DNA from: Roseibium sp.
GTDB lineage: Bacteria > Pseudomonadota > Alphaproteobacteria > Rhizobiales > Stappiaceae
NCBI RefSeq assembly: GCF_025698965.1
Contig: NZ_JAILWL010000005.1
Location: 1 to 37,108 of the forward strand
Direction of reading: 5' to 3'
Length of the DNA: 37,108 bases
The notes below the pieces were generated by a model, which was given only the letters and a program-made list of their open reading frames with translations, was not told the DNA's origin and ran no database searches. A program made the translations under genes and the position numbers. Of the stretch, positions 13,593 through 31,291 are shown piece after piece (positions within the stretch are counted from its first letter, which is position 1; each line of letters opens with the position of its first letter).

Positions 13593-14900
13593 TCAGATCA
13601 ACATCAGTGACAGCGCCGGAACTGCGATCAGCAGGGCCAGCCTGAGGATGTCTGCCACCCAGAAGGGGACAATGCCGGCGAACATGGTTCTGAGAGGCAC
13701 GTCGGTCAGAACCGAGCGCAGAACGAAGACATTCAGGCCGATCGGTGGGGAGATCAGGCTGATCTCGGTCACCACCACCACCACGATCCCGAACCAGATC
13801 AGAACCATTTCCGGATCGCTCAGGATGCCGGTGCCGAAATCAAGAGACGTCACAAGCGGAAAGAACACCGGAACGGTGAGTAGGATCATGGAGAGGCTTT
13901 CAAGCACTGCACCCAGCAGCACGTAAATCAGCACCAGAACCAGCATCACCACATACGCATTTACATCCAGCGACTGAACAAAGTTCAGAAGAGCATCAGG
14001 CACCCCGGCATAGCTGATGAAGTTGGAAAAGACTTCAGCGCCGATGATGATGGCAAAGATCATCGCTGTCGTGCGGGCGCAGTTGAGCCCGGCTGTAAAC
14101 AGTTTCTTGAAAGTCAGACCGCCGGATGCGAATGCGATTACAAGGGCGGTCGCCGCGCCGATCCCGGCTGCCTCGGTCGGCGTGAAGAAGCCGCCATAGA
14201 TACCGACCATGATCACGGCGAAAAGACCGACAACCGACAGAACGCCCCACAGGTCCTTTCTTTCCAAAGGAATGTCTTCATGATCCGTAGGGGCAAGGGA
14301 TGGTTTGAAAAGGACCGTAACGTAAACGGCTGCAAGATAGAACAGGACCCCGAGCAGACCGGGAATGATGCCGGCAATGAACAGTTTGCCGATATCTGCT
14401 TCGGTCAGAAGGCCATAGATGATCAATATGACGCTCGGCGGGATCAGAATGCCCAGGGTACCGCCGGCGGCGATCGAACCGGTTGCCAGACTGTCCGCGT
14501 AACCGGCCTTGCGCATCGACGGCATGGCCACCTTGGACATGGTTGCGGCTGTTGCCAGCGACGAGCCGCAGACCGCGGAAAACCCGCCACAGGCGACGAT
14601 TGAAGCCATGGCAAGACCGCCCGGCAGGCGATGCAGCATGCGATGCGCAGTGCTGAAAAGCGACTGACTGACACCAGAGATTGTCAGGAGATTACCCATC
14701 AGGATGAATAGCGGAATAACCGACAGGGTGAAGGACAAGCCGGTGTCGAATGCAGCATTGCCAAGCAGGTTCAACGCGGCGTTCCAGTTGCGCAAAGCCG
14801 CAAAGCCGGCAGTTCCGACTATAATCATTGCGACAGCGATGGGGACGCGCAGCAACACCAGGGCGAACAGCGCAACAAAACCAATCAGAGCTTCCAGCAC
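13593..14900 (-). CDS. TRAP transporter large permease (DctM family)
   Basis: The 435-residue product is a very hydrophobic protein with about 12 membrane helices and the DctM signatures GGTLGILIPPSVILIIYG (about 146-163), GFFTPTEAAGIGAA (about 237-250) and LISPPIGLNVFV (about 385-396). TRAP large subunits use the sodium gradient in an elevator mechanism to import organic acids delivered by the periplasmic DctP. It starts with GTG at 14900, with AAGG 8 bp upstream, 3 bp after the small subunit stop. It is the last gene of the operon. Substrate is not evident from sequence. Confidence 0.95.
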   Translation of the reverse strand: MLEALIGFVALFALVLLRVPIAVAMIIVGTAGFAALRNWNAALNLLGNAAFDTGLSFTLSVIPLFILMGNLLTISGVSQSLFSTAHRMLHRLPGGLAMASIVACGGFSAVCGSSLATAATMSKVAMPSMRKAGYADSLATGSIAAGGTLGILIPPSVILIIYGLLTEADIGKLFIAGIIPGLLGVLFYLAAVYVTVLFKPSLAPTDHEDIPLERKDLWGVLSVVGLFAVIMVGIYGGFFTPTEAAGIGAATALVIAFASGGLTFKKLFTAGLNCARTTAMIFAIIIGAEVFSNFISYAGVPDALLNFVQSLDVNAYVVMLVLVLIYVLLGAVLESLSMILLTVPVFFPLVTSLDFGTGILSDPEMVLIWFGIVVVVVTEISLISPPIGLNVFVLRSVLTDVPLRTMFAGIVPFWVADILRLALLIAVPALSLMLI

Positions 14901-14903
14901 GCG

Positions 14904-15413
14904 TCAGGCCTTATTTTGGAAACGTTTAAGGGACCAGAAAATGGCCGTGATGGCCGAGATCGAAAAAGAGGCGGCTCCGAGCCATCCGATCAGATAAAGC
15001 GGAATTTCGAGTGAGTCCGTTACCTGCTCGCGCCGCTGCAGCTTGTCGGCATGCTCCAGCAGTTCAATCGCAATGATCGCAAAGACCGCAACGGTGGTGA
15101 TCCCGGCAAGTGCTGTTCCGATCCGCTTCAGAAAATGGCTTTTAAGACCATCCAGAAGCTCAACTTCGATATGTTCGCCTGCCGCCGTGGTCAGCGGGAG
15201 CGCCAGGAAAATAAGAGATGCCAGCAACAGCTGCGTGAGTTCATAGGCACCGCTGACCGGGCTGTTGAAGACATATCTGGCAATAACATCCACACATGTC
15301 AGGCCGATCATCGCAGACATTACCAGGAGACAGGCAAGACCCAGTAGAAAAGTGGCTCCGCGCCGGATCTTTGCGATCCGGCCCGAAGCTGGTTTTGAGG
15401 GGACAGGTGTCAT
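14904..15413 (-). CDS. TRAP transporter small permease (DctQ family)
   Basis: The 169-residue product has four predicted membrane helices and the family pattern CVDVIARYVFNSPVSGAYELTQ near residues 40-61, then LPLTTAAGEHIEVELLDG (about 73-90). It forms the scaffold for the DctM-type subunit. Its ATG at 15413 comes 2 bp after the DctP stop, and its own stop is 3 bp before the DctM start, so the three genes are tightly coupled. Confidence 0.93.
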   Translation of the reverse strand: MTPVPSKPASGRIAKIRRGATFLLGLACLLVMSAMIGLTCVDVIARYVFNSPVSGAYELTQLLLASLIFLALPLTTAAGEHIEVELLDGLKSHFLKRIGTALAGITTVAVFAIIAIELLEHADKLQRREQVTDSLEIPLYLIGWLGAASFSISAITAIFWSLKRFQNKA

Positions 15414-15415
15414 GA

Positions 15416-16444
15416 TCAGTTTGAAACGCCGGTCTGGGTCCGCATTTCGCTCAGCGCCGCTGCACCGTCGAACCCTGTCTCCTTGACCGCATCGGCCCAG
15501 GTGCCTTCGTGTTTGGCTGCAAGTTCCTTGATTTTCGCAAGGACGGGCTCGGGAGCGTCATAAACCTCGACTTCCTTGTCGGCGATGTAATCTGCGCCGC
15601 GCGTATCGGCCGCGTCCCAGACACCGCCTGCCAGTTCTGCCAGGGCTGCGCCGGAGACTTTTTCAATGGCCGCCTGATCTTCCGCGGACAGGCCATCCCA
15701 GATGTCTTCGTTCATGACCATGAACCAGGACGTGTTGTAGATGCCGCCGGGGACTTTCATGGAGTATTTGACATAGTCCGTGAGCTTGAACGCCTGCAGG
15801 GCTTCCATCGGGAAGGTGACCCCGTCAATAACGCCGCGGGACAGCTTTTCGTAGACTTCGCCCGGTCCCATGAACTGGGTGGTGATGCCAAGATCTTGTG
15901 ACAGGTCGGCGATGTAGCCGCCAGGCGTCCGGATTTTCAGGCCCGAGACATCTTCCGGGTTTTCGATCTTGCGCTGGTTGTTGTGGAACATGCCCGGTCC
16001 ATGGATCCAGAGGCCGAGAAGCTTGGTCCCTTCGTGTTCGCCTTGAGCATCCAGTTTACCACCGTAGACGTCCCAGTAGGCTTTGGATCCGTCGGTTGCG
16101 TTGTCTGCAATGAAAGAGAACTGGCCGATGCGCGAACGCAGGAAACGGTCATCCTTGGTAAAGGAATGCAGTCCGTAGGTGATGTCTGCAACACCGTCTG
16201 CTGCCAAATCATAGTGAGCCGGCGGCGGGCCGAGCGGTTTTGGCAGTATGCGCACGGTCACGCGGCCTTCGGTGGCTTCCTCAACCTGATCTGCCCAGGG
16301 CTGCATGACGCCGGTCACGATCGGGTGTTTCGGCGGAAGCCAGGATGACAACACCAGCTCTTCTGATGAAGCACCGGCGATCATGGTGGTCAAGGCGGTG
16401 GCAGTCAGCCCTGCCAGAATAGAAATAGACTTGATCGGTTTCAC
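15416..16444 (-). CDS. TRAP transporter substrate-binding protein (DctP family)
   Basis: The 342-residue product has a signal peptide, with cleavage likely near AGASS (about residue 27), and a DctP fold. The conserved Arg that binds the substrate carboxylate is probably R172 in GLKIRTPGG. WIHGPGMFHNN (146-156) and FMGPGEVYEKLSRGVIDG (from about 191) are family-like segments. The start is GTG at 16444, with a strong GGGAGGAG Shine-Dalgarno at 16451-16458. It is first in the TRAP operon and divergent from marR. The shared spacer holds a palindrome, so ligand import is probably controlled by that regulator. A carboxylate, perhaps aromatic, is a guess. Confidence 0.93.
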   Translation of the reverse strand: MKPIKSISILAGLTATALTTMIAGASSEELVLSSWLPPKHPIVTGVMQPWADQVEEATEGRVTVRILPKPLGPPPAHYDLAADGVADITYGLHSFTKDDRFLRSRIGQFSFIADNATDGSKAYWDVYGGKLDAQGEHEGTKLLGLWIHGPGMFHNNQRKIENPEDVSGLKIRTPGGYIADLSQDLGITTQFMGPGEVYEKLSRGVIDGVTFPMEALQAFKLTDYVKYSMKVPGGIYNTSWFMVMNEDIWDGLSAEDQAAIEKVSGAALAELAGGVWDAADTRGADYIADKEVEVYDAPEPVLAKIKELAAKHEGTWADAVKETGFDGAAALSEMRTQTGVSN

Positions 16445-16522
16445 AGTTTTCTCCTCCCATATGCCGTCTGAAAGCGGAGCATTGACTGCACAATCACGAT
16501 TTCAGAACATATTTCACGAAAA

Positions 16523-16540
16523 TAGTTGCAAATGAAACTA
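16523..16540. promoter_or_regulatory. Candidate MarR-type operator between TRAP operon and marR
   Basis: TAGTTGCA (16523-16530), AA, then TGAAACTA (16533-16540) form an 18-bp palindrome with one mismatched pair (TGCAACTA would be perfect). Length, dyad symmetry and position between divergent transporter and marR genes fit a MarR binding site. The 9-mer AATCACGAT also occurs twice in the same spacer, at 16492-16500 and 16553-16561. Confidence 0.6.
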
Positions 16541-16590
16541 AGTCAATCTTAAAATCACGATGTAACCCAAAAGAAGCAAGCTGAGATTCC

Positions 16591-17124
16591 ATGAGCAAGC
16601 CGAACCGAACGGACAACGACGTCGCTGCCAAGGGGGACCTGCCACCGAAGATCGAAGGTCACCAAGGGTCTGAATTTGTGCTTGAGAAGTTCTTTCCGTA
16701 TCTGGTGCGCGTCTTTGCAACTGATGTTTCAAATGCACTGTCAGTCGTCTATCAGCGCGATTACGGAATGATGCCCGCCGAGTGGCGGACCATGGCCATT
16801 CTTGGGGCAGCCTCCGGTGGGCTGCAGGCAACGGAGATCGTTGCCCGCTCGAGCATGGACAAGGTGGTGGTCAGCCGTGCGGTCAAGCGGATGGAAGAAA
16901 GGGGCTTTCTGAGGCGCGAGGCGAACAACGCCGATGGTCGCAGTTTTCTGTTGCAGCTCTCTGACGAGGGCAGGGCGGTCTATCAGGATCTTGCGCCAAA
17001 GCTGCTCGCGGTAGAGTGTAAAATGCTTGAGGGCCTGGGGAAGACCGAGATCTCGGAATTTCTGGCCGTGGCGCAAAGGATCAGGGACAATCTGACTGGC
17101 TCTGCCGATGACGCTGGAGTCTGA
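16591..17124 (+). CDS. MarR-family transcriptional regulator
   Basis: The 177-residue product has a central winged helix-turn-helix: TEIVARSSMDKVVVSRAVKR (81-100) is the recognition region, and a wing with the DGR motif (115-117) is followed by LQLSDEGR (121-128). Flanking helices would form the dimer. MarR proteins usually repress neighbouring genes and release DNA on binding a small, often phenolic, ligand. It diverges from the TRAP operon with a good palindrome between them, so local control and autoregulation are likely. The Shine-Dalgarno is weak (GAG about 7 bp upstream of ATG 16591). Confidence 0.92.
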   Translation: MSKPNRTDNDVAAKGDLPPKIEGHQGSEFVLEKFFPYLVRVFATDVSNALSVVYQRDYGMMPAEWRTMAILGAASGGLQATEIVARSSMDKVVVSRAVKRMEERGFLRREANNADGRSFLLQLSDEGRAVYQDLAPKLLAVECKMLEGLGKTEISEFLAVAQRIRDNLTGSADDAGV

Positions 17125-17464: not shown

Positions 17465-20400
17465 TTAGTCGAGACGGCCGCTTGCGTGGGCGAGCATGGT
17501 GTAGACCTTGCCTGTGTCAGAGGTCAGGTAGGTCTGGCCCAGCATATTGTCCCGGTCGTTGCGCGATACCTGGGCCAGGAGCTGCTCGAAGTCTGCCACA
17601 TACCGCTCGACGGCCGTGCGGAACTCGGGGTCACGGGCATATTTCTGACGGATCTCGTCAAAGGTCTGCTGCCCCTGGAGGGTGTAGAGACGGCGGGTGA
17701 ACACATGGCGCTCGCCGTTTCGGTACCGGTTCCAAAGATCAATGAAGGTCTCATGATCGATGGCACGGGCGATGTCGACCGACAGCGAGTTCAGGCTTTC
17801 GACCGTTTGGAGCGGTGTTCTGGCCTGTTCGGTATCGCTGCTGGCATCGTCGTCACTGGATGCGCGGCGCAACAGGTCTGCCACCCAGCCCTTGCCCTTG
17901 GATCCGCCATTGTCAGCCTGTGAAGGCTGTTGGCGGCGGGGCTCGGCCGGACGATTGGCTGCCGGACGCGGTTCGGTTGCCGGTGCCTGTTGGCGGGCAG
18001 GGGCAACGGGCGCGAAACTGGCGGCCGGTGACGGTTGCGGCTGCGGAGCCGGGGCAACACTTGCCGCTGCCGCCTGAGCTTGCGGCCGGGAAATGTCCAG
18101 GGTGTTGGACTGCTTGGCAACGATCTCGGACAGTTCGGTCAAAGCGCGGATCTGTTCATTGACGACCTTGCGCAGTGCCGCAGAGGATTCCTCAGCTTCA
18201 TCCGGCAGGTTGAGAACGCCCTGTTTCAGTTCGTTGCGGGTTGCTTCCAATTCACGATGGACGTCGCGGGCAACGTCACGCATGCGGGTTGCCGCATCGT
18301 TGAAACGTTCCGAAGCATCGGTCACCGTGCGGGACATTTCCGCAATGATGTCGTCCTGTGCCGAACGGATCGCATCGCGTGCCTTCTGACCTTCCATACC
18401 GGCGGTCAGGCGCATGGATTCAAACTGTTCGGACACCTGCTTGGACGCAGCCTCGGCGGCCGCGCTCAGCATGGTCGCCGCATCGCGGGCCTTGTCGTCT
18501 GCCGTTTCAAGAGTTTCGGACAACGTCTGCGTGAAGGACCGCATCAGCGTGTCGACAGCTTCGGTTTTTGCAAGAAGCGTATCGGCAACGTCTTCGATGG
18601 CCGTACGGCGCTCGGTGACGCGTCCTTCGACCGTGCGATTGGTTTCTTCCAGATGACGGGCCGCTCTGGTCAGCTCTTCGGACTGATCGCTGAAGCGGCT
18701 GGTCAGATTCTGGACATCTGCAAGGGTCGTTGTGGTGACATCACGCAGATTGCCGACCTGTTCGGTGATCAATGTGGTCGTTGCATTGGTTTCCGTGACG
18801 GCCCGGTCCACAGCGGAACGGAACTCACCGGCACGGCGCGCCAGATTGCCTTCGACCTCGTTGAGGTTTTCACCCGCGGACGAGACGATGTTCTGCAGGT
18901 TGACGTTGGACTCCTCGATTTTATTGAGGATCTCGGTAACGTCTGCCTCCAGGCGACGTTTGGTGTCGCTGAGCAGTGTTGTCGCCTGATCGCTGCGCTC
19001 GTTGATGCTTGCGACGATCCGGTCGCCTGCTTCCACAAGCGAGCGGGTGGCATCGAGACCGGTGTGAGCGAAGGTCTCTGTAACGTCGCGGCCCTTGACG
19101 GTGATTGCGTCCAGGATGGCGCCGTGGACTTCCGACAGGCGGCCAGTCAGGTCATTGGCGCGCATTTCGATGGCGCTGATCAGCTCGTTGCCGTCGGTCC
19201 CGACAATCTTGGCCAGCTCGCCGGAACGGGCACCGAAGGCCTCGTTAAGCGTTGTCGCCTTGTCAAGCAGTTCGGACGCGACTTCGTTGCCGCGACCGAC
19301 CAGAAGTTCGGCGGCTTCCGTAACCGCGCTGTTGACGCGGGAGCGGACCATGCCGGCTTCGTTTGACATCTGGCCCCGGATTTCTTCCAGGGTTTTGGCG
19401 AGCGTCATGCGAGCCTGTTCGCTTTCTGCCGACAGGTTGCCGGAGATCTCTGCAATCAGGCCTGAAAGCTCATTGCGAACCTTGTCGCTTTCTCCCGTCA
19501 GCGAGCCCGTGAACTCGGCAAGGGTTCCGGCATAAAGGGTGCGAGCGTTTTCGCTCTCTGCAGCCATTGCACGGGCTGCCTCGCCAACAGCAGACAGAAC
19601 CAGTTCGCGGATACGGCTGCTTTCGCCGGACATAGTGCCGGTAGCCTGTTCCATAGCGGAGTTGATTGCATCAGCCGCTTTCTGGCTTTCGCCAACCAGA
19701 ACGCCGCGGGCTTCACCAACGGAGCCCAGAACGATCTGGCGCATGCGATCGCCTTCGCCGGATAGTTTTTCCGTAGCCTGGCTGAGAGCGCCGTCAACGA
19801 TTTCAACTGTTCTGGTGCGTTCTTCGGACAAGGTTTGAACCGCGCCCGTGATGGCTTCCTGCACAACGTCACGCAGACGCGTGCTTTCCGTGGACAGGGT
19901 GGCACCGGCTTCCGAGATCACGGCCGTTAGAATGTCACGGGCGCGTTCGCTTTCACCGGTGAGGGTGCCGGAAATGCTCTCCAGGCGCTCATTAAGCAGA
20001 GTTTCAAGCTGCGTTGCCCGGCTGTCGAGGGTTTCAGCGACCTCGAAGACCTTTGCACCAAGCGACACGTTGATCTCAGCAATGCGCTCCGAAAGGGAAT
20101 CCGTCAGCTGTTCGCTCTGTTTACCCAGAACATTGCCGGCTTCCTCCAGTCGGTTGTCGAGGGCAGAGGTCATTTCGTCCTGACCTTCAACAAAGGCCTT
20201 GGCGATTTCCTTGGTTCTGGTGATCAGGGTCTCGGAGATCTGACGCGCCCTAGCGTCGAGCGTTTCGTCGATCCGATCTGTACCGCTGGTCATGGAAGCT
20301 GATAGCAGTTCCGCCTTTTCCGCCATCGATGTTGCAGCGCCGTCGACGCGTGTCGACAGGGTCTGGCCGATTTCTTCAGCGCGGTCCGCAAGTGTATTGC

Positions 20401-23311
20401 CTGCTGCCTCGATCCGCTGTCCGAGTTGCAGTGTGATTGCGTCGGACCGATCTGCCAGAACGTCGGTGATGTTGCGGGTCTTTTCTTCCAACGCGTCGCT
20501 GATGCCCGTCGTGCGGTGCTCGATTGCCTCTGCGAGGATCTGCGTCCGCGTCTCCAGCGTGGCCTCGAACGCCGCAGTTCGCTGGTCAAGCGTCAGGTCC
20601 AGCGTGTTGATGTGGCTACCAAGGGCCGCATCCATTGTCGCGATACGTTCGCCCAGGGAAGCATCAATCGTGGTGACGCGACCATCGAGTGTTGCATCCA
20701 TTGCAGCGAAGCGGCTTTCAAGCGTGGTGTCCAGTGTTGAGACACGCTCTGTCAGCGTTGTGTCGACCGAAGCCAGCCGGCTCTCAAGCGTGGTATCCAT
20801 GGTTGCAATACGCTCGGTCAATGTCGCATCCACCGAGGAGAAGCGGGTTTCAAGCGAGTTGTCCATGGTCGCGATGCGCTCGATCAGGGTGGAATCCATC
20901 ATGGAGAACCGGTTTTCGAGGGAGGAATCCATCGATGTCAGGCGGCTTTCCAGAGATGTATCCATGGTCGCGATGCGCTCGCTCATGGTTGCGTCGATCG
21001 CCGTGAAGCGTTGTTCCAGCGATGTATCCATCGTGCTGATCCGCTCGTTGAGCGTCGCGTCGATGGCCGCGTATTTCTGATCCAGGGACGTGTCCATGGT
21101 TGTGATGCGATCGCCGAGCGAAGCGTCCATCGCGTCGATCCTGGCGGCAAACGTCGTATCGAGCGTCGACAGCCGGGAATCCAGTGCTTCGGAAAGCAGG
21201 AGTGTCTTGGTGTCGAAGGCATCAATCAGCTGGCCACCGCGATCGGTGACGATGGTTTCAAGCTCGCTGAGGCGGGTAGAAAGTCCGTCCTGCAGGGCCT
21301 GACCGCGAACTTCAAGCGTTTCTGCGATCTTGCCGCTGATTTCGTTGATGTCGCCCGTAACCCGGTCGCCGCGGCTGCCAATCAGTTCGGCAAGCTGGGT
21401 TCCGGTTTCAGCCAGCTTGAGGGTGAGGGTACCCGTCTGTTCGCCGAGGCCGGCCGCAAACTGGCTGGAAACGCCTTCCAGTGTGTCGCGGAAACCGACG
21501 GTCTGCTGTTCCAGAATGGTCGCCATCTCGTTGCTGCGGGCTGCCAGACGCTCGTCCAGCTCGGCGCCATTGATGGAAATGGCGTTGTAGATGCGCTCGG
21601 AAATGGTGTCGAATTTCTCGGCAAGTTCACCGCCGCGAACGGAGATGGTCTCCGTGAGCGTGCCGGCAGTTTCGTCGAGTTTGGATGCGATCTCACCACC
21701 ACGCAGAGACAGATCGACCACAATACTCTCGCCCGTACCGCGCAGAATCTCCGCAACTTCAGTGGAGCGGCTGGAAAGGGTTTCGACGATCTCGGCGCCA
21801 CGGATGGAAATGGTGTCGGTAACGGTCTGGCCGCGCTCGGAGATGCTCTCAACAACCCGGTTTCCTGTTTCGGCAAGCGACTCGTCGAGGCTGGTGACCC
21901 TGCTGTCGACGGTCGAGACCAGTTCTTCGGTCCGGGCCGTGATCGTGTCGATCAGACGGCCGGAGGACAGGGACATGTTGGCGTTGATCTCTTCACCGCG
22001 CTGGGTGATTGTTTCGCCGACATTTGCTCCTGTTGTCTCCAGCGTCAGGCGGAATTCGTCAGCCTTGTTACTGAGTGTCTCAACGACAGACGTGCTGGAG
22101 GTAATCAGGGTTTCGTTGATTTCCGTGCTGCGGGCAGCCAGGGTTTCCACGAAGCTGTTGGCAGTGTCGGCAAATCGCTCATTCACCTCATTGCCCCGTG
22201 TGGAAAGTGTCTCCCACATGGAGGTGCCGGTTTCAGCAAGATCATCGACCAGCTTGTTGCCGGTTGACGACAGACGGGTCACATAGTCTTCGGCGCGGAC
22301 GGTCAGGGAATCCACCAGCTCGTTGCCGGACGCGTTCAGCGTTGCACCAAGCGATTCAATGCGAGAGTCGACGGTTGACGTGAGTTCTTCAACACGGTTG
22401 TTGACCGCATCGATCATGCGCTGGGTCGCCTGATCCACGGTGGTCCCAAGTTCGCCGGACGTGTCGGACAGCTGCGAGGAGTATTTTTCATGTGCACCGG
22501 CGATGGTCTCGCGGACCCGCTCTGCATTCATGACAATGGACTCGCGCTGACTGACGAGTTCGTCAATCAGGGCGCGGATCTTGAGTTCGTTATCGTTGTA
22601 AGAGCGTTCGAGCGAGGAGACTTCGTTGTGAACGAGAACTTCCAGTTCGCTTGCGCGCGCAATTGCTCTCTCGATACCGTCTCCCATGGCGGCTACTTCG
22701 CGGCGGATGGCCTGACCGACACTGAGAATGGATTCCTTCGCCATGTCCTCCGGTTCCGCCAGGCGCAGGGCGACTTCGGTCATTCCCCTGGCGACGATGC
22801 GCATTTCCTGAGCGCGCCAGATCATCATGGCCATGATGAAGAAGAAGATGATCGGCACGACGATGCCGACGGCTGCCAGGATCATCTCCGGCGACCCGAG
22901 CAGGGCCTGGGTATCAAGCGAGGAGACCTTGTCGGAAAATGCCGTCATGAACAGACTGGTGCCGAGCGCGGCCCATACTGCGCTCAACGCGAGGGCTCCC
23001 CAGAACGGGGCGGAAGAAGGACGGCGCTGCAAGGCATAGATCAGATTACCGATATTCCGGCGGTCGTCATTGGCCGCAGGCGGGCGACCGCCACGTCCGC
23101 GACGGCGCGACTGGCGCTGCTCTTCGCGCTGTGGCCCTTCCTGCTTGTCAGCCTTGGGTTTGCGAGCCGGTTCCGTTTCCGCCGCTGCACTCGCTTCCGG
23201 AGCAGACAGTGTCTCTGCAGTTTCAGGCCCGCCGAAATCAAGTTTCAGGGCTTCTTCAACCGCGGACAGAGCCGCTTCAGCCGGATCTTTCGCCTTTGTC
23301 GGGTTTGCCAT
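17465..23311 (-). CDS. gpr: Giant membrane-anchored apolipoprotein-like protein, probable Growth Pole Ring homologue
   Basis: The 1948-residue product begins with a basic, disordered stretch (about 1-100, RRRGRGG at 69-75). Two membrane helices follow (about 103-124 and 143-164). From about 262 to 1471 there are about 110 consecutive 11-residue repeats without any insertion, with hydrophobic residues at positions 5 and 9 and often Arg at position 1. Residues 713-932 are 20 near-identical units, and 1120-1339 are ten 22-residue units. A heptad-like region (to about 1735), a Pro/Ala/Gln-rich linker (about 1741-1800) and a conserved-looking C-terminal domain (about 1838-1948) follow. Architecture and size match the Agrobacterium Growth Pole Ring protein (about 2100 residues), which organises polar growth and is related to Caulobacter TipN. 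Function is by analogy. The ATG at 23311 has GAGG about 10 bp upstream. Confidence 0.85.
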   Translation of the reverse strand: MANPTKAKDPAEAALSAVEEALKLDFGGPETAETLSAPEASAAAETEPARKPKADKQEGPQREEQRQSRRRGRGGRPPAANDDRRNIGNLIYALQRRPSSAPFWGALALSAVWAALGTSLFMTAFSDKVSSLDTQALLGSPEMILAAVGIVVPIIFFFIMAMMIWRAQEMRIVARGMTEVALRLAEPEDMAKESILSVGQAIRREVAAMGDGIERAIARASELEVLVHNEVSSLERSYNDNELKIRALIDELVSQRESIVMNAERVRETIAGAHEKYSSQLSDTSGELGTTVDQATQRMIDAVNNRVEELTSTVDSRIESLGATLNASGNELVDSLTVRAEDYVTRLSSTGNKLVDDLAETGTSMWETLSTRGNEVNERFADTANSFVETLAARSTEINETLITSSTSVVETLSNKADEFRLTLETTGANVGETITQRGEEINANMSLSSGRLIDTITARTEELVSTVDSRVTSLDESLAETGNRVVESISERGQTVTDTISIRGAEIVETLSSRSTEVAEILRGTGESIVVDLSLRGGEIASKLDETAGTLTETISVRGGELAEKFDTISERIYNAISINGAELDERLAARSNEMATILEQQTVGFRDTLEGVSSQFAAGLGEQTGTLTLKLAETGTQLAELIGSRGDRVTGDINEISGKIAETLEVRGQALQDGLSTRLSELETIVTDRGGQLIDAFDTKTLLLSEALDSRLSTLDTTFAARIDAMDASLGDRITTMDTSLDQKYAAIDATLNERISTMDTSLEQRFTAIDATMSERIATMDTSLESRLTSMDSSLENRFSMMDSTLIERIATMDNSLETRFSSVDATLTERIATMDTTLESRLASVDTTLTERVSTLDTTLESRFAAMDATLDGRVTTIDASLGERIATMDAALGSHINTLDLTLDQRTAAFEATLETRTQILAEAIEHRTTGISDALEEKTRNITDVLADRSDAITLQLGQRIEAAGNTLADRAEEIGQTLSTRVDGAATSMAEKAELLSASMTSGTDRIDETLDARARQISETLITRTKEIAKAFVEGQDEMTSALDNRLEEAGNVLGKQSEQLTDSLSERIAEINVSLGAKVFEVAETLDSRATQLETLLNERLESISGTLTGESERARDILTAVISEAGATLSTESTRLRDVVQEAITGAVQTLSEERTRTVEIVDGALSQATEKLSGEGDRMRQIVLGSVGEARGVLVGESQKAADAINSAMEQATGTMSGESSRIRELVLSAVGEAARAMAAESENARTLYAGTLAEFTGSLTGESDKVRNELSGLIAEISGNLSAESEQARMTLAKTLEEIRGQMSNEAGMVRSRVNSAVTEAAELLVGRGNEVASELLDKATTLNEAFGARSGELAKIVGTDGNELISAIEMRANDLTGRLSEVHGAILDAITVKGRDVTETFAHTGLDATRSLVEAGDRIVASINERSDQATTLLSDTKRRLEADVTEILNKIEESNVNLQNIVSSAGENLNEVEGNLARRAGEFRSAVDRAVTETNATTTLITEQVGNLRDVTTTTLADVQNLTSRFSDQSEELTRAARHLEETNRTVEGRVTERRTAIEDVADTLLAKTEAVDTLMRSFTQTLSETLETADDKARDAATMLSAAAEAASKQVSEQFESMRLTAGMEGQKARDAIRSAQDDIIAEMSRTVTDASERFNDAATRMRDVARDVHRELEATRNELKQGVLNLPDEAEESSAALRKVVNEQIRALTELSEIVAKQSNTLDISRPQAQAAAASVAPAPQPQPSPAASFAPVAPARQQAPATEPRPAANRPAEPRRQQPSQADNGGSKGKGWVADLLRRASSDDDASSDTEQARTPLQTVESLNSLSVDIARAIDHETFIDLWNRYRNGERHVFTRRLYTLQGQQTFDEIRQKYARDPEFRTAVERYVADFEQLLAQVSRNDRDNMLGQTYLTSDTGKVYTMLAHASGRLD
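19295..19954 (-). repeat. Ten 66-bp (22-residue) tandem repeats inside the gpr-like gene
   Basis: Residues 1120-1339 split into ten 22-residue units, most starting near Gly/Ala-Glu-Ser and each made of two hendecads, for example ESERARDILTA then VISEAGATLST. Register is exact across all ten. Confidence 0.8.
20516..21175 (-). repeat. Twenty 33-bp (11-residue) tandem repeats inside the gpr-like gene
   Basis: Residues 713-932 form 20 units of consensus R-I/F/L/V-x-x-M/I/V/L-D-T/A/S-T/S-L-x-E/S. Examples are RIATMDTSLES, RFSSVDATLTE and RVSTLDTTLES. Position 1 is Arg in all but two units (Lys746, His900). The units are far more alike than those on either side, which suggests recent expansion or gene conversion. 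Confidence 0.85.
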
Positions 23312-23593: not shown

Positions 23594-23908
23594 ATGCCAG
23601 AATCGAAGGAAAACGACGCAGCGGAAAGTGGGCGAAGCGATGCTGAAAATAGTGCGCTCAAAGCGGGAAAATTATCGGCACCGCAAAAGCGTTGGTTGAA
23701 AAAGGGCCTTGAACAACCAGGTGGAAAATTGCCTCTGTTTGACGACAACGGGCGCGAAATACCCGCACGTACCATTCGGGCCTGCATTGACGGGGGATGG
23801 GCAGAGCCTTGGTTTTCCAATCCAATCAAGCCTGACTGGTTGGTGTGCAAGCTGACCCCTGCAGCAATCGAAGCTCTTTCCGCAAGTCAAAAAAACAAAA
23901 AAAGTTAA
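23594..23908 (+). CDS. Small protein of unknown function, divergent from the gpr-like gene
   Basis: I do not recognise a named family. The 104-residue product has a charged N terminus, then a compact region: LSAPQKRWLKKGLEQPGGKL (about 28-47), LFDDNGREIPARTI and CIDGGWAEPWFSNP (about 64-77), ending in LTPAAIEALSAS and a Lys-rich tail. The segment order (helix, helix, Gly-Trp turn, LTPAG-like end) recalls small winged-helix-like proteins of alphaproteobacteria, but this is only an impression. The ATG at 23594 has a GGGGG tract 8 bp upstream. It diverges from the gpr-like gene with a 282-bp spacer. Confidence 0.7.
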   Translation: MPESKENDAAESGRSDAENSALKAGKLSAPQKRWLKKGLEQPGGKLPLFDDNGREIPARTIRACIDGGWAEPWFSNPIKPDWLVCKLTPAAIEALSASQKNKKS

Positions 23909-24161: not shown

Positions 24162-24524
24162 ATGGCCCCTTCATCCATGGCCCGCGTTACCGGTCGGGCC
24201 GGCCCTGAGGCCCCGATCGATTTGGTGCAGCTGGCCACCAATACGCTGGGAAACCGGGACCTGGAAGTCCAGGTTCTTCATCTTTTCAAATCACAATCGT
24301 CCTCTACGCTTCAGCGGCTTGCGAGCGAAACGGACGCTTCGATCAGGCTGGATCTGGTTCACACGCTCAAAGGATCTGCGCGCGCGATCGGTGCTGAAAG
24401 GGTCGCCGCGGTTTGCGAAAACCTAGAAGGCAAGATGAAATCAGTGCCTGATGCTGCAACTGCCGGTTTGATTTCGGCGGTCGATGAAGCCAACAGTTAC
24501 ATCCGCGACTTGCTTGAGGGCTGA
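24162..24524 (+). CDS. Hpt domain (histidine phosphotransfer) protein
   Basis: The 120-residue product is a single Hpt four-helix bundle. The phosphorylatable histidine is H67 in HTLKGSARAIGA (67-78), matching the Hpt consensus His-x-Leu-Lys-Gly-Ser. Stand-alone Hpt proteins shuttle phosphate between hybrid kinases and response regulators. In alphaproteobacteria similar proteins feed the CtrA pathway (ChpT is a different fold), so the partner is unknown. GGAG lies 8 bp before the ATG at 24162. No kinase or receiver gene is next to it. Confidence 0.9.
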   Translation: MAPSSMARVTGRAGPEAPIDLVQLATNTLGNRDLEVQVLHLFKSQSSSTLQRLASETDASIRLDLVHTLKGSARAIGAERVAAVCENLEGKMKSVPDAATAGLISAVDEANSYIRDLLEG

Positions 24525-24642: not shown

Positions 24643-24919
<277 letters not shown>

Positions 24920-28157: not shown

Positions 28158-30179
28158 ATGCGTATGCGTCCTGTGTTTCGATATACAATCACCGGAAAGC
28201 TTCTGACCATTGTGGCGATCTGCGTAGCATTTGTTGTCGCTGCGTCTGGTGTGGGCATTTACCAGATCCGGAAAATTGGACAGGAAATCGAATTCATCGC
28301 GGAAGCCGAAGTGCCGCTGACCGAAGCCATTGGCCACGTGACCGCGCATCGTCTTGAACAAACGGCTCTGATCGAACGCCTGATGCGCCTAAGCCTCTCC
28401 AGGACGCTCGGATATTCCCTGCAGGAAGAGGGCGGTGCTGCAAAGCTTGAAGGACGCTTTCTATACCTGGGTGGCAAGATTACAGACGAATTTGCTGAAG
28501 CTTCGGAAATCGCGGAGCAGGGGATCGAAATGGCCCGGTCGCAGGCTCAGATTGACGAATTTGAAGCCGTTTTGAAAACCATAACTGCAATTGGCGAGGA
28601 ACACCTGGAATACACCGAAAGGGCAAACCAGGTTCTCGTCCAGGCAAAGCTTGGTAACCCGCGGGAAGCCGAACAACTGCTGCAGGATGTGAGCAAGAAG
28701 CACACGGCCTTCAACATGGAACTGGAGGCGCTTCTCTTCAGGGTTCAGGCGCTGGCGGAAACCGCAGCAAAGTCTGCGGCAGTTCACGAAAAAAATGCCA
28801 TTCGCTTCACGGTGATGATCTCGCTGGGTGCGGCTGCGTTGTCGGTTCTGTTGGCAATGTGGCTCGGTCGCCGCGCGATTGCCTTTCCGTTGCTGGACGT
28901 CGTCAACGCATTACGCCGACTGTCCAGAAACGACTTCGACGCAGAACTCCCGGTAAACCGGCACGATGAAATCGGGGATATTGGCCGGGCCTTCAAGGCG
29001 TTCAAGCAACACCTGATCAATGTTCAGGAGCAGGAGCAGGTGGAAAAAAGGCGGCAGGCAGCGCTTACCCGCGAAATCCGTCTGCTGTCTGAATTGAATG
29101 AATGGTTGCAGTCCAGCAGTTCACTTGAGGAGCTTTTCAATATGGTCAGCCGTTTCATGACCAAGTTGCTGCCGCGCAGTGCAGGGGCCGTCTATGTCTA
29201 TTCCAATTCAAGGGATGTTCTGGATGGAGCGTGCTCCTGGAATGGCGGAAATTTGGAAGCCCATATCAGGCCGACATCATGTTGGGGGCTGCGGCGTGGT
29301 CGCCCCTATGTGTTCGGCGATAGTGAAGTCAGTTTTGCCTGTGAACATGTTTCGCCAGGCAAGGAAGACGGGGTGTATCTGTGCCTACCAATTCTGGCCC
29401 ATGGCGAAACAGTCGGCCTGATGCATCTGACCCCGGCTGAAGACGTTGGCGAAGAGGAATTCCTCAAGGATCGTAAACTGGCGCAGATGGCCGCTGAACA
29501 GGTCAGCCTTGCCATTGCCAACACGAGGATGCGGGATGAATTGCACAATCAATCCATTCGGGATCCGCTGACAGGTCTATTCAATCGTCGCCATTTCATC
29601 GAATTGCTCAGAAACAACCTTGAGCGTGCCCGGTACAACGGGCAGTCGGTGTCGCTTGTGTCCATCGATGTCGATCACTTCAAGAAGTTCAACGACAATC
29701 ATGGGCACGACGCGGGCGATATGGTTCTGCGGGCTGTCGGTGCCGTCATGGAACAGGTCTGCGAAGGCGATCAAGTGCCATGCCGACTGGGTGGTGAGGA
29801 ATTCATGGTTCTGCTGCCGGCAGAGAAAACCGATGAGGCTGCAGAAGTTGCTGAAAAACTGCGTGATGCGGTCGCAAAGGTCGTTGTGCGCTATGGTGAG
29901 AAGAACCTGCCGAAGATTACCGTTTCCTGCGGGGTTGCCGGATATCCGGACCATGGCCGTATGCCATTGGACCTTATGAAGTCGGCGGATGACGCGCTTT
30001 ACAAATCGAAAGATGGCGGGCGCAACCTGGTGACCGTTGCATCATGTCACGATGACGAAGAGCCGGCATCCGACCTGAAAGCCATGCTGGAAGACGCCAA
30101 GAGCGAGACGGTATCCAAAGCGGATGAAACAAAGTCAGACGAATTGGAGCCGGGAAGCAAGTCCGTGAATGCGGCTTAA
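28158..30179 (+). CDS. Membrane diguanylate cyclase with HAMP, GAF and GGDEF domains
   Basis: The 673-residue product has a membrane helix at about 13-35, a periplasmic helical sensor (about 36-215), a second helix (about 217-237), a HAMP linker (about 238-291), a GAF-like domain (about 320-455) and a GGDEF domain (about 460-630). The active motif is GGEEF (545-549) with DPLTGLFNRR at 469-478. The RxxD inhibitory site is absent: at the corresponding positions there is EGDQ. An acidic 40-residue tail follows. It should make cyclic di-GMP in response to a periplasmic and perhaps a cytosolic signal. ATG 28158 has GGAG 6 bp upstream and is preferred over ATG 28146. Its stop overlaps the stop of the convergent methyltransferase gene by 4 bases. 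Confidence 0.93.
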   Translation: MRMRPVFRYTITGKLLTIVAICVAFVVAASGVGIYQIRKIGQEIEFIAEAEVPLTEAIGHVTAHRLEQTALIERLMRLSLSRTLGYSLQEEGGAAKLEGRFLYLGGKITDEFAEASEIAEQGIEMARSQAQIDEFEAVLKTITAIGEEHLEYTERANQVLVQAKLGNPREAEQLLQDVSKKHTAFNMELEALLFRVQALAETAAKSAAVHEKNAIRFTVMISLGAAALSVLLAMWLGRRAIAFPLLDVVNALRRLSRNDFDAELPVNRHDEIGDIGRAFKAFKQHLINVQEQEQVEKRRQAALTREIRLLSELNEWLQSSSSLEELFNMVSRFMTKLLPRSAGAVYVYSNSRDVLDGACSWNGGNLEAHIRPTSCWGLRRGRPYVFGDSEVSFACEHVSPGKEDGVYLCLPILAHGETVGLMHLTPAEDVGEEEFLKDRKLAQMAAEQVSLAIANTRMRDELHNQSIRDPLTGLFNRRHFIELLRNNLERARYNGQSVSLVSIDVDHFKKFNDNHGHDAGDMVLRAVGAVMEQVCEGDQVPCRLGGEEFMVLLPAEKTDEAAEVAEKLRDAVAKVVVRYGEKNLPKITVSCGVAGYPDHGRMPLDLMKSADDALYKSKDGGRNLVTVASCHDDEEPASDLKAMLEDAKSETVSKADETKSDELEPGSKSVNAA

Positions 30180-31291
30180 TCCTTACGCGTCAGCAGCATG
30201 GCAATCGCCATGTATCGAAACGGATAAGACTTGGGGTTTGCCTTCAAAATGACTTCTGCCTGACGGTAGATCCGATCCACCAGATCGGCTCGCTCCGGTG
30301 TTTCAGGCAAGGCGCTGCTCAGGACCGCTTCCGTGAAAGCGCGGAAAAAATTCACATAATCCTTTGCAAAACGATCGAGATCGCCATCGCTCGCATATTG
30401 CTGATTGAACGGCACGGCGATCTCGTAGGACCTGGTGCTGTCGAGTGAGTAAAGCGACGAAACCGTGCTTTGCGGATCACGTAGCGGTGCAGTCAGTTCA
30501 TCCAGATGGCGCATATAGACGGGTTGATAATAACGGTCGTAACTTTCCCGGGAGATTTCGTCCTTGTCGACAAAGCTCAAGACAGCATCGTTCAGAAGAT
30601 CGTAGATACCATCGCAGGTTCTGGCTTGGTCCGTAGATCCAAAAACCTGCACCAGCAATTTGCCGCCCGGCACCAATTCCCTGGCTCTGACTTCCAGGTA
30701 GCATTCAACGTCCCGTCTGGCCTGGAGGGCAAATGCCGACCGGTCATCATCCGATACATAGCCATTTGCCCGCACGGTGCTCGGGCCGTTCGGGAAGATA
30801 TATCCCGGCAACCTGTTGACCGGCCGGCGAGACAAGAAGCCGATAGCATTAAACGTTGTTGCCAGATGAAGGCTTCGTTCCGGCAACAGCTGGTCATACA
30901 TGGAACCGCCGACCACCGAGGAATAGACCCGGTTGCTGTCGTAAACCGACTGTCCATCCGGGCGAAGATTGGCGATCAGTTTGGAAAAGTCGTTGGTTGG
31001 CAGATCGGAGTGGATCGTTTGCACCGAAAGGTCAGTTTTCGGCAGAAGGCTTCTTAATGCGCGGGACATGACCGCAATCGAATTCCGACCTTCAGAGCAA
31101 CCGAAGTCTGCAAGGCGCACGCAATCTGGGTCGCGAAGCTGAAGCGATGTGATCGCATCATCGAGTATGGGGAGAACAGCTTCAATAGCATTCCACTGCG
31201 TTGCCGAGTTTGCGTCATAAAAGCCGCCACCGGTCATGCCTGTTGTCGTTGCATGGGAGGAAGGCGTGTCCGAAGCTTCGATATCAGCCAT
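30176..31291 (-). CDS. SABATH-like SAM-dependent carboxyl methyltransferase
   Basis: The 371-residue product has a SAM-binding motif I ADFGCSEGRNSI (61-72) and segments that align in order with the plant salicylate/jasmonate carboxyl methyltransferase (SABATH) family: GMTGGGFYDANSATQ (18-32), LPERSLHLATTFNAIGFLSR (136-155) and SFVDKDEISRESYDRYYQPV (239-258). Plant SABATH enzymes are about 350-380 residues and methylate small-molecule carboxylates. Bacterial members are less common and their substrates mostly unknown. It follows the VWA gene by 51 bp in the same direction and may be co-transcribed. Its last codons overlap the diguanylate cyclase stop. A general class I methyltransferase of another subfamily is the alternative. 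Confidence 0.75.
   Translation of the reverse strand: MADIEASDTPSSHATTTGMTGGGFYDANSATQWNAIEAVLPILDDAITSLQLRDPDCVRLADFGCSEGRNSIAVMSRALRSLLPKTDLSVQTIHSDLPTNDFSKLIANLRPDGQSVYDSNRVYSSVVGGSMYDQLLPERSLHLATTFNAIGFLSRRPVNRLPGYIFPNGPSTVRANGYVSDDDRSAFALQARRDVECYLEVRARELVPGGKLLVQVFGSTDQARTCDGIYDLLNDAVLSFVDKDEISRESYDRYYQPVYMRHLDELTAPLRDPQSTVSSLYSLDSTRSYEIAVPFNQQYASDGDLDRFAKDYVNFFRAFTEAVLSSALPETPERADLVDRIYRQAEVILKANPKSYPFRYMAIAMLLTRKD

Follow-up and report, generated by a model that had tools for sequence, protein, structure and literature searches.

Two long proteins of polar-growing bacteria, GPR of Agrobacterium (2115 aa) and RgsE of Sinorhizobium meliloti, have been reported to localise to the growing pole and to be needed for rod shape (PMC8262873, PMC7327166). 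RgsE, which is described as 42% identical to GPR, has been termed repeat-containing, and the rgsE mutant of S. meliloti Rm2011 is reported to grow slowly (PMC7327166); deletions in GPR are reported to show that the apolipoprotein-like rod pieces and the C terminus both matter (PMC8262873). In the GPR study the rod is regarded as a set of domains resembling apolipoprotein A-IV, with a possible part in lipid sorting, and folding is held to be required since an extended helical domain of 1700 residues would, on the strength of a 2019 paper cited there, measure 600 nm (PMC8262873). By simple arithmetic, a 1700-residue helix at 1.5 angstrom per residue comes to 255 nm, whereas a length of 600 nm is nearly that of a fully unfolded chain. 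The words repeat, hendecad and periodicity are absent from the main text of that paper (PMC8262873), and we found no report of hendecads or of a register rule for GPR or RgsE in the open-licence literature searched.

The apolipoprotein A1/A4/E family (PF01442) is characterised by Pro-punctuated helices of 22 residues. Exchangeable apolipoproteins and perilipin 4 (Plin4) have amphipathic helices with an 11-residue periodicity, and Plin4 is described as carrying 29 repeats of 33 residues (PMC8064757). Among coiled coils, hendecads are described as the most frequent repeat after heptads, with hydrophobic residues at positions a, d and h (PMC9858780). Scy and FilP of Streptomyces, long hendecad rods implicated in cell division and polarity, are described as dimers with a DivIVA-like N-terminal motif and Ala-rich cores; Scy has more than 1000 residues, nearly all in hendecads, and is reported to interact with DivIVA (PMC9858780).

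Here we describe a gene of this kind in a window of 37,108 nucleotides (the whole stretch of DNA that was analysed) from Roseibium sp., contig NZ_JAILWL010000005.1. Its 1948-aa product belongs, by sequence and synteny, to the already known RgsE/GPR family; the part for which we found no report in the open-licence literature is a register rule among close relatives, by which the rod changes length in whole hendecads. We favour a straight coiled-coil rod over the published picture of apolipoprotein bundles, with a lipid-adsorbed 11/3 helix as the main rival. The rule offers a sharper alternative to lipid-sorting domains, and a natural series of rod lengths within one group can be compared with pole geometry.

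Results

An RgsE/GPR-family gene

The rod gene is the single match in its own genome. A tblastn search of plasmid records with its N-terminal region led to a 3.7-Mb S. meliloti record labelled pSymB, where the matching gene, SMc00190, is annotated as a kinesin and encodes 2089 aa, the published length of RgsE. The two proteins are 28% identical over 2141 columns, and RgsE is matched by the profiles of both conserved ends, the N-terminal profile A3 (1e-70) and the C-terminal profile A1, which follows the Pro-rich linker (1.2e-63). A divergent Hpt-domain gene and a 2Fe-2S gene lie beside the rod gene in both the window and S. meliloti. The end-domain matches, the overall identity and the shared neighbours together identify the window gene as an RgsE/GPR-family orthologue, the link to GPR running via RgsE, and bear out an earlier note on this DNA that had called the protein gpr-like from its architecture.

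Within the very long helical rod, which includes an in-register run of 1212 aa, Pfam PF01442 matches 12 stretches (4e-74). It is by far the strongest Pfam match: the entire protein scores 248.9 bits, above the gathering cut-off of 90, the baculovirus PEP_C model barely passes its own cut-off, and the remaining models fall below theirs. In a search of the protein's own genome the rod gene alone scores with PF01442, every single genomic stretch staying below the cut-off; as 7 of the 14 control genomes likewise give matches below the cut-off, PF01442 by itself carries little weight. NCBIfam matches to ZorA, far below cut-off, were taken as coiled-coil cross-talk and this identity was rejected.

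The layout of the protein is given in Table 1. Its two hydrophobic segments are likely to be transmembrane, judging by hydropathy. A PDB search with A3 gave a best E no lower than 0.26, and comparison of the C-terminal domain with PDB folds gave nothing at E<=0.001; AlphaFold predicts the latter to be helical almost throughout (pLDDT 76, pTM 0.69). The C-terminal domain is kept across the order and part of the class. In part of the post-array segment the 2/7 signal exceeds the 3/11 signal. For redundancy, 15 of the 20 Roseibium-group relatives were left out of A1 and 5 of the 20 out of a further set, A2; also left out were L044 and L066 (A1) and L044 and L050 (A3).

Table 1. Features of the rod gene and its conserved neighbours, in window coordinates.
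Feature	Position	Strand	Basis
Gene for 1948-aa RgsE/GPR-family protein	17465-23311	minus	ORF
Conserved C-terminal helical domain, ~residues 1831-1948	17468-17821	minus	profile A1, 38 sequences
Pro-rich variable linker, ~residues 1736-1830	17822-18106	minus	sequence
Post-array helical segment of fixed length, residues 1472-1735	18107-18898	minus	264 aa in 20/20 Roseibium-group homologues
Uninterrupted hendecad array, residues 257-1468	18908-22543	minus	Fourier analysis and register tracking
66-bp tandem DNA repeats within array, ~residues 726-866	20712-21133	minus	TRF, 72-74% matches
Conserved N-terminal domain, residues 75-262	22526-23089	minus	profile A3, 33 sequences
Two hydrophobic segments, residues 106-125 and 136-168	22808-22996	minus	Kyte-Doolittle 19-aa windows >1.6
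Hpt-domain gene, divergent from rod gene	24162-24524	plus	PF01627, 1.2e-9
2Fe-2S ferredoxin gene	24671-24919	plus	PF00111, 2.4e-8

One unbroken hendecad register

When residues 262-1471 are laid out in rows of 11, 108 of the 110 rows have a hydrophobic residue or Ala at position 5 and a hydrophobic residue at position 9, a pattern that the earlier note had described together with frequent Arg or Thr at position 1 (R in 51 rows, T in 13). V, I, L, M or F occupies position 9 in 98% of rows (Leu in 68 rows) and position 5 in 83%, where a further 15% have A. Most rows carry a small (G, S, A, T) or aliphatic residue at position 2; in hendecad notation, positions 2, 5 and 9 correspond to a, d and h. 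The two misfit rows begin at residues 1164 and 1461; the second of these is the final row, which places the end of the array near residue 1468.

That about 110 hendecads follow one another in a single register was confirmed by Fourier analysis, Viterbi tracking and held-out rows, and the coordinates first proposed (18899-22528) were at most a few residues off. The Fourier power reaches 177 at 3/11, compared with a mean of 1.1 and a maximum of 6.4 in 500 shuffles, and is 0.08 at the heptad frequency (2/7). In overlapping 66-residue windows that start at residues 265-1420, the local 3/11 phase never leaves the range from -100 to -142 degrees; outside this region it drifts. A Viterbi register tracker returned a single long run of 1212 aa (residues 257-1468), to be compared with runs that never exceeded 31 aa when each of 34 order-level homologues was shuffled five times. 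Because the register profile had been trained on the array itself, half of the rows were held out as a control; 47 of these 55 picked the common register, so that the profile is not self-fulfilling.

The array contains no Cys, and its net charge is -97. Pro is absent from the array of the 1948-aa protein and of all 20 relatives, unlike the Pro-punctuated apolipoproteins, and across the order 32 of 34 rods hold 0-2 Pro, the remaining two having 5 and 6. RgsE resembles the window protein in its long, Pro-poor hendecad rod between the same N- and C-terminal domains, but it changes register several times, by +4 (one heptad) in 8 of 9 adjacent steps, whereas the window protein shows no break in 1212 aa. 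The longest RgsE run is 546 aa; hendecad purity is thus not needed for function.

Array length changes in whole hendecads among close relatives

Twenty relatives were compared, comprising 19 full-length proteins from one search and L021, with the other loci of the series L021-L039 left out as partial pieces; these close relatives come mostly from records labelled Roseibium, Labrenzia or Stappia. In 20 of 20 full-length Roseibium-group homologues the array-equivalent segment (residues 239-1471) differs in length from that of the 1948-aa protein by a multiple of 11 residues, the differences ranging from -253 to +77. The 264 residues that follow the array are constant in length in all 20, with no gap at all, and length differences at the N terminus and in the tail are small. 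Since several of the homologues are near-duplicates, distinct gap classes were counted over the 21 sequences: 15 of 15 classes within the array are multiples of 11, versus 2 of 50 outside it, where 40 of the 50 fall in the linker region (residues 1744-1826). Odd multiples of 11 occur, which makes the unit 11 rather than 22. Eleven of the 15 array classes start in or beside the 66-bp DNA repeat region, and 22- and 88-aa gaps are also present outside it, at residues 1123, 1162, 1217 and 1432; one remote insert of 22 aa resembles its neighbour (11 of 22 identical), and two others match theirs at just 8 of 22.

The expectation that array indels among close relatives would be multiples of 33 bp also held in a same-genus pair from another family, f28, L054/L093 (76% identity), with array gaps of 66, 22, 44, 11 and 110 aa; in another f28 pair, L099/L100 (55% identity), gaps split by the aligner were summed by hand to 253, or 23 x 11. 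Between distant members it did not hold: gap sizes in cross-genus f28 pairs include 4, 7 and 15 aa, and the rods of RgsE and a Shinella homologue are separated by gaps of 33, 51, 55, 15, 15, 7 and 11 aa, of which several are sums of 11s and 7s, although such sums fit many numbers. In these sequences the strict rule of 11 is limited to pure arrays and close relatives, and it fails at greater distance, where heptads interrupt the register.

Array length itself varies widely. In the Roseibium group the array segment spans 980-1310 aa, with in-register runs of 957-1290 aa, and runs reach 1617 aa in family f28, which rules out an exact-length ruler and with it the earlier suggestion of selection on exact length. 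The tie to the 200-nm Growth Pole Ring is lost as well: with rod length varying so widely, the match between 182 nm and 200 nm is a coincidence.

Distribution and register breaks across the order

Of 41 genomes of the order, the source genome among them, 40 contain a match to the N-terminal 238 aa. In a sample of the phylum, A3 matched 13 of 13 other members of the order (3 of them shared with the 41-genome set), 2 of 12 genomes from other orders of the class and 0 of 74 from other classes; in a class sample, made up partly of the same genomes as the phylum sample, the N-terminal profile matched 16 of 57 other genomes. On re-search 15 of these 16 class-level loci gave an N-terminal match (L091 gave none), and 14 of the 15 proteins also match the C-terminal profile. 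No class-level locus has an in-register run longer than 72 aa, and the giant hendecad rod therefore looks, from these sequences, like an expansion inside the order. The class-level proteins L076-L090, from other orders, share the N-terminal domain and are mostly 626-1341 aa long, with one of 2000 aa; they are possibly TipN-like, and an NCBIfam search with six shorter relatives returned no TipN-like name.

For register analysis we used 34 of the 39 order-level loci besides the window, omitting G023, G028, G029, G034 and G046 (contig ends, short frames), and 11 of 13 further f28 loci. In the 34 homologues the longest in-register run measures 89 aa at the least and 1203 aa at the most. Counting register segments of 14 aa or more, we found 134 steps from one segment to the next, distributed as +4 (72), +8 (43), +7 (11), +1 (5) and +3 (3). 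Because a shift of +4 leaves as much overlap with the hydrophobic pattern as one of +7, and +8 as much as +3, the excess of +4 and +8 (115 of 134, compared with 14 for +7 and +3 together) is informative. By this count, register breaks across the order are mostly heptad-sized, one inserted heptad giving +4 and two giving +8.

A conserved face and a proposed rod

The number of distinct residues per column, counted over 16 sequences in the gap-free part of the array, is 1.4-1.7 at positions 1, 5, 9, 2 and 6 and 2.7-3.4 at positions 3, 4, 7 and 11. The five most conserved positions adjoin one another round the helix. In 7 of 8 pairs drawn from several lineages, identity at each of the five is above that at every other position; in the eighth pair, L054/L093, position 6 alone falls slightly under 8 and 10, and the contrast is weakest in the RgsE/Shinella pair. 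The conserved face takes in Arg/Thr and small residues as well, which is suggestive of a specific protein interface. A salt bridge between positions 1 and 6 was considered and rejected: R/K at 1 and D/E at 6 co-occur equally at four row offsets (22, 21, 23 and 23; ~14 expected), which marks the enrichment as compositional.

The array, we think, probably forms a straight, self-associating coiled-coil scaffold rod, in which phase is selected and exact length is free. In this picture the chains would pack against one another through the 1-5-9-2-6 face, giving a straight rod with hardly any supercoil that, with a rise of 1.5 angstrom per residue, would be some 180 nm long and would hang from the inner membrane at the growing pole. 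The rod would serve both to space the C-terminal domain from the membrane end and as a multivalent scaffold between the two. Each hendecad would bring the interface back to the same side of the helix, so that whole-repeat changes would be tolerated and other indels purged. The missing Pro and the charge of -97 appear more readily reconciled with a long soluble rod than with a lipid belt. Bulky residues facing the axis of a hendecad bundle are described as favouring more than two strands (PMC9858780); position 9 appears from the helical wheel to be the axis-facing residue, and its bulky Leu in mid-seam suggests more than two strands here. The AlphaFold model of residues 239-735 has helices of 43, 227 and 212 residues, although it is a weak one (pTM 0.28, pLDDT 71) and its helices are interrupted around residues 510-529. 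Also to be set against the proposal are the impure register of RgsE, the failure of the strict rule of 11 between genera and the lack of a preferred pairing offset between positions 1 and 6.

By this comparison Scy would be the nearest analogue in kind, a likeness that we assume to be analogy and not descent. Compared by description, the window protein differs from Scy and FilP in the bulky Leu of its seam and in its N-terminal hydrophobic segments. A wider proposal, which we put forward tentatively as one possible picture, is that phase-locked, length-free hendecad/heptad rods form a multi-strand cable, purely hendecad in the Roseibium group, that evolves by whole repeats across an order of polar-growing bacteria and may be under Hpt control.

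The main rival to the coiled-coil rod, unlikely in our judgement but with several observations on its side, is an amphipathic 11/3 helix of giant size that rests on the inner membrane, in the manner of apolipoproteins, synuclein and perilipin 4, in which constant phase keeps one face towards the lipid. The PF01442 matches, the N-terminal hydrophobic segments and a detectable similarity of the array to human apolipoprotein A-IV (E about 1e-4) agree with it; a lipid role is favoured by the GPR authors (PMC8262873), and Arg flanking the seam on one side would also fit, as in the description of Plin4 (PMC8064757). Against it, the hydrophobic seam is narrow, comprising positions 5 and 9 and partly 2, positions 1 and 2 keep their residues as strictly as the hydrophobic positions do, and the heptad-sized register steps of relatives are unexpected for an 11/3 helix on lipid. 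The net charge of -97 also counts against it, as a negative net charge is unfavourable on an anionic membrane. The Plin4 helix is described as lacking bulky residues, unlike an array with so much Leu at position 9, and its 33-mer logo is shown with three K and two D (PMC8064757), in contrast to the strongly negative array.

The published alternative, in which the array would be a succession of apolipoprotein A-IV-like three-helix bundles, has in its favour the SWISS-MODEL homology models reported for two GPR domains (PMC8262873), but we consider it improbable, given zero Pro across ~1210 array residues, gaps of single and odd numbers of hendecads that would upset fixed helix lengths, and predicted helices of more than 200 residues, the low pTM of that model leaving room for fold-back at the break. 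Very improbable, finally, is that the in-register indels reflect mere slippage or unequal exchange between 33/66-bp DNA repeats without selection on phase: the clustering of gap classes at the 66-bp repeat does provide a mutational route, and one remote insert resembles its neighbour, but no array gap class of any other length occurs in the 21 sequences, the 264-aa segment is gap-free, the register persists where TRF detects no DNA repeat, two other inserts match their neighbours at only 8 of 22 residues, and the conserved helix face is a protein-level constraint.

Conserved neighbouring genes

Comparison of rod-gene loci flagged the Hpt-domain gene as a conserved neighbour. Of 34 order-level loci, 30 have it upstream of the rod gene, on the opposite strand in 29 and on the same strand in one (L045), and it holds this upstream place in 20 of 20 Roseibium-group, 9 of 11 f28, 3 of 3 Rhizobiaceae and 2 of 16 class-level loci. 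Among 65 Hpt matches, 8 are without a recognisable phosphorylation-site motif by a simple pattern. The conserved gene position raises the possibility that the Hpt protein controls the rod protein; no open-licence paper was found that brings together the Hpt domain, polar growth and the Rhizobiales. The 2Fe-2S ferredoxin gene adjoins the Hpt gene, in the same place as in S. meliloti. It was seen in all 7 of the 7 loci with longer flanks; of the order-level loci, whose flanks are short, 8 of 34 show it, and of the class-level loci 0 of 16.

Other genes of the window deserve brief mention. A conserved ORF of 104 aa without a Pfam match (23594-23908, plus strand) is found beside the rod gene in 5 of 34 order-level loci. 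A gene at 30176-31291 on the minus strand matches the SAM-dependent carboxyl methyltransferases (PF03492, 2.5e-40), a family known mainly from plants. TRAP transporter genes (DctM, DctP) adjoin a MarR-family regulator at 13593-17124.
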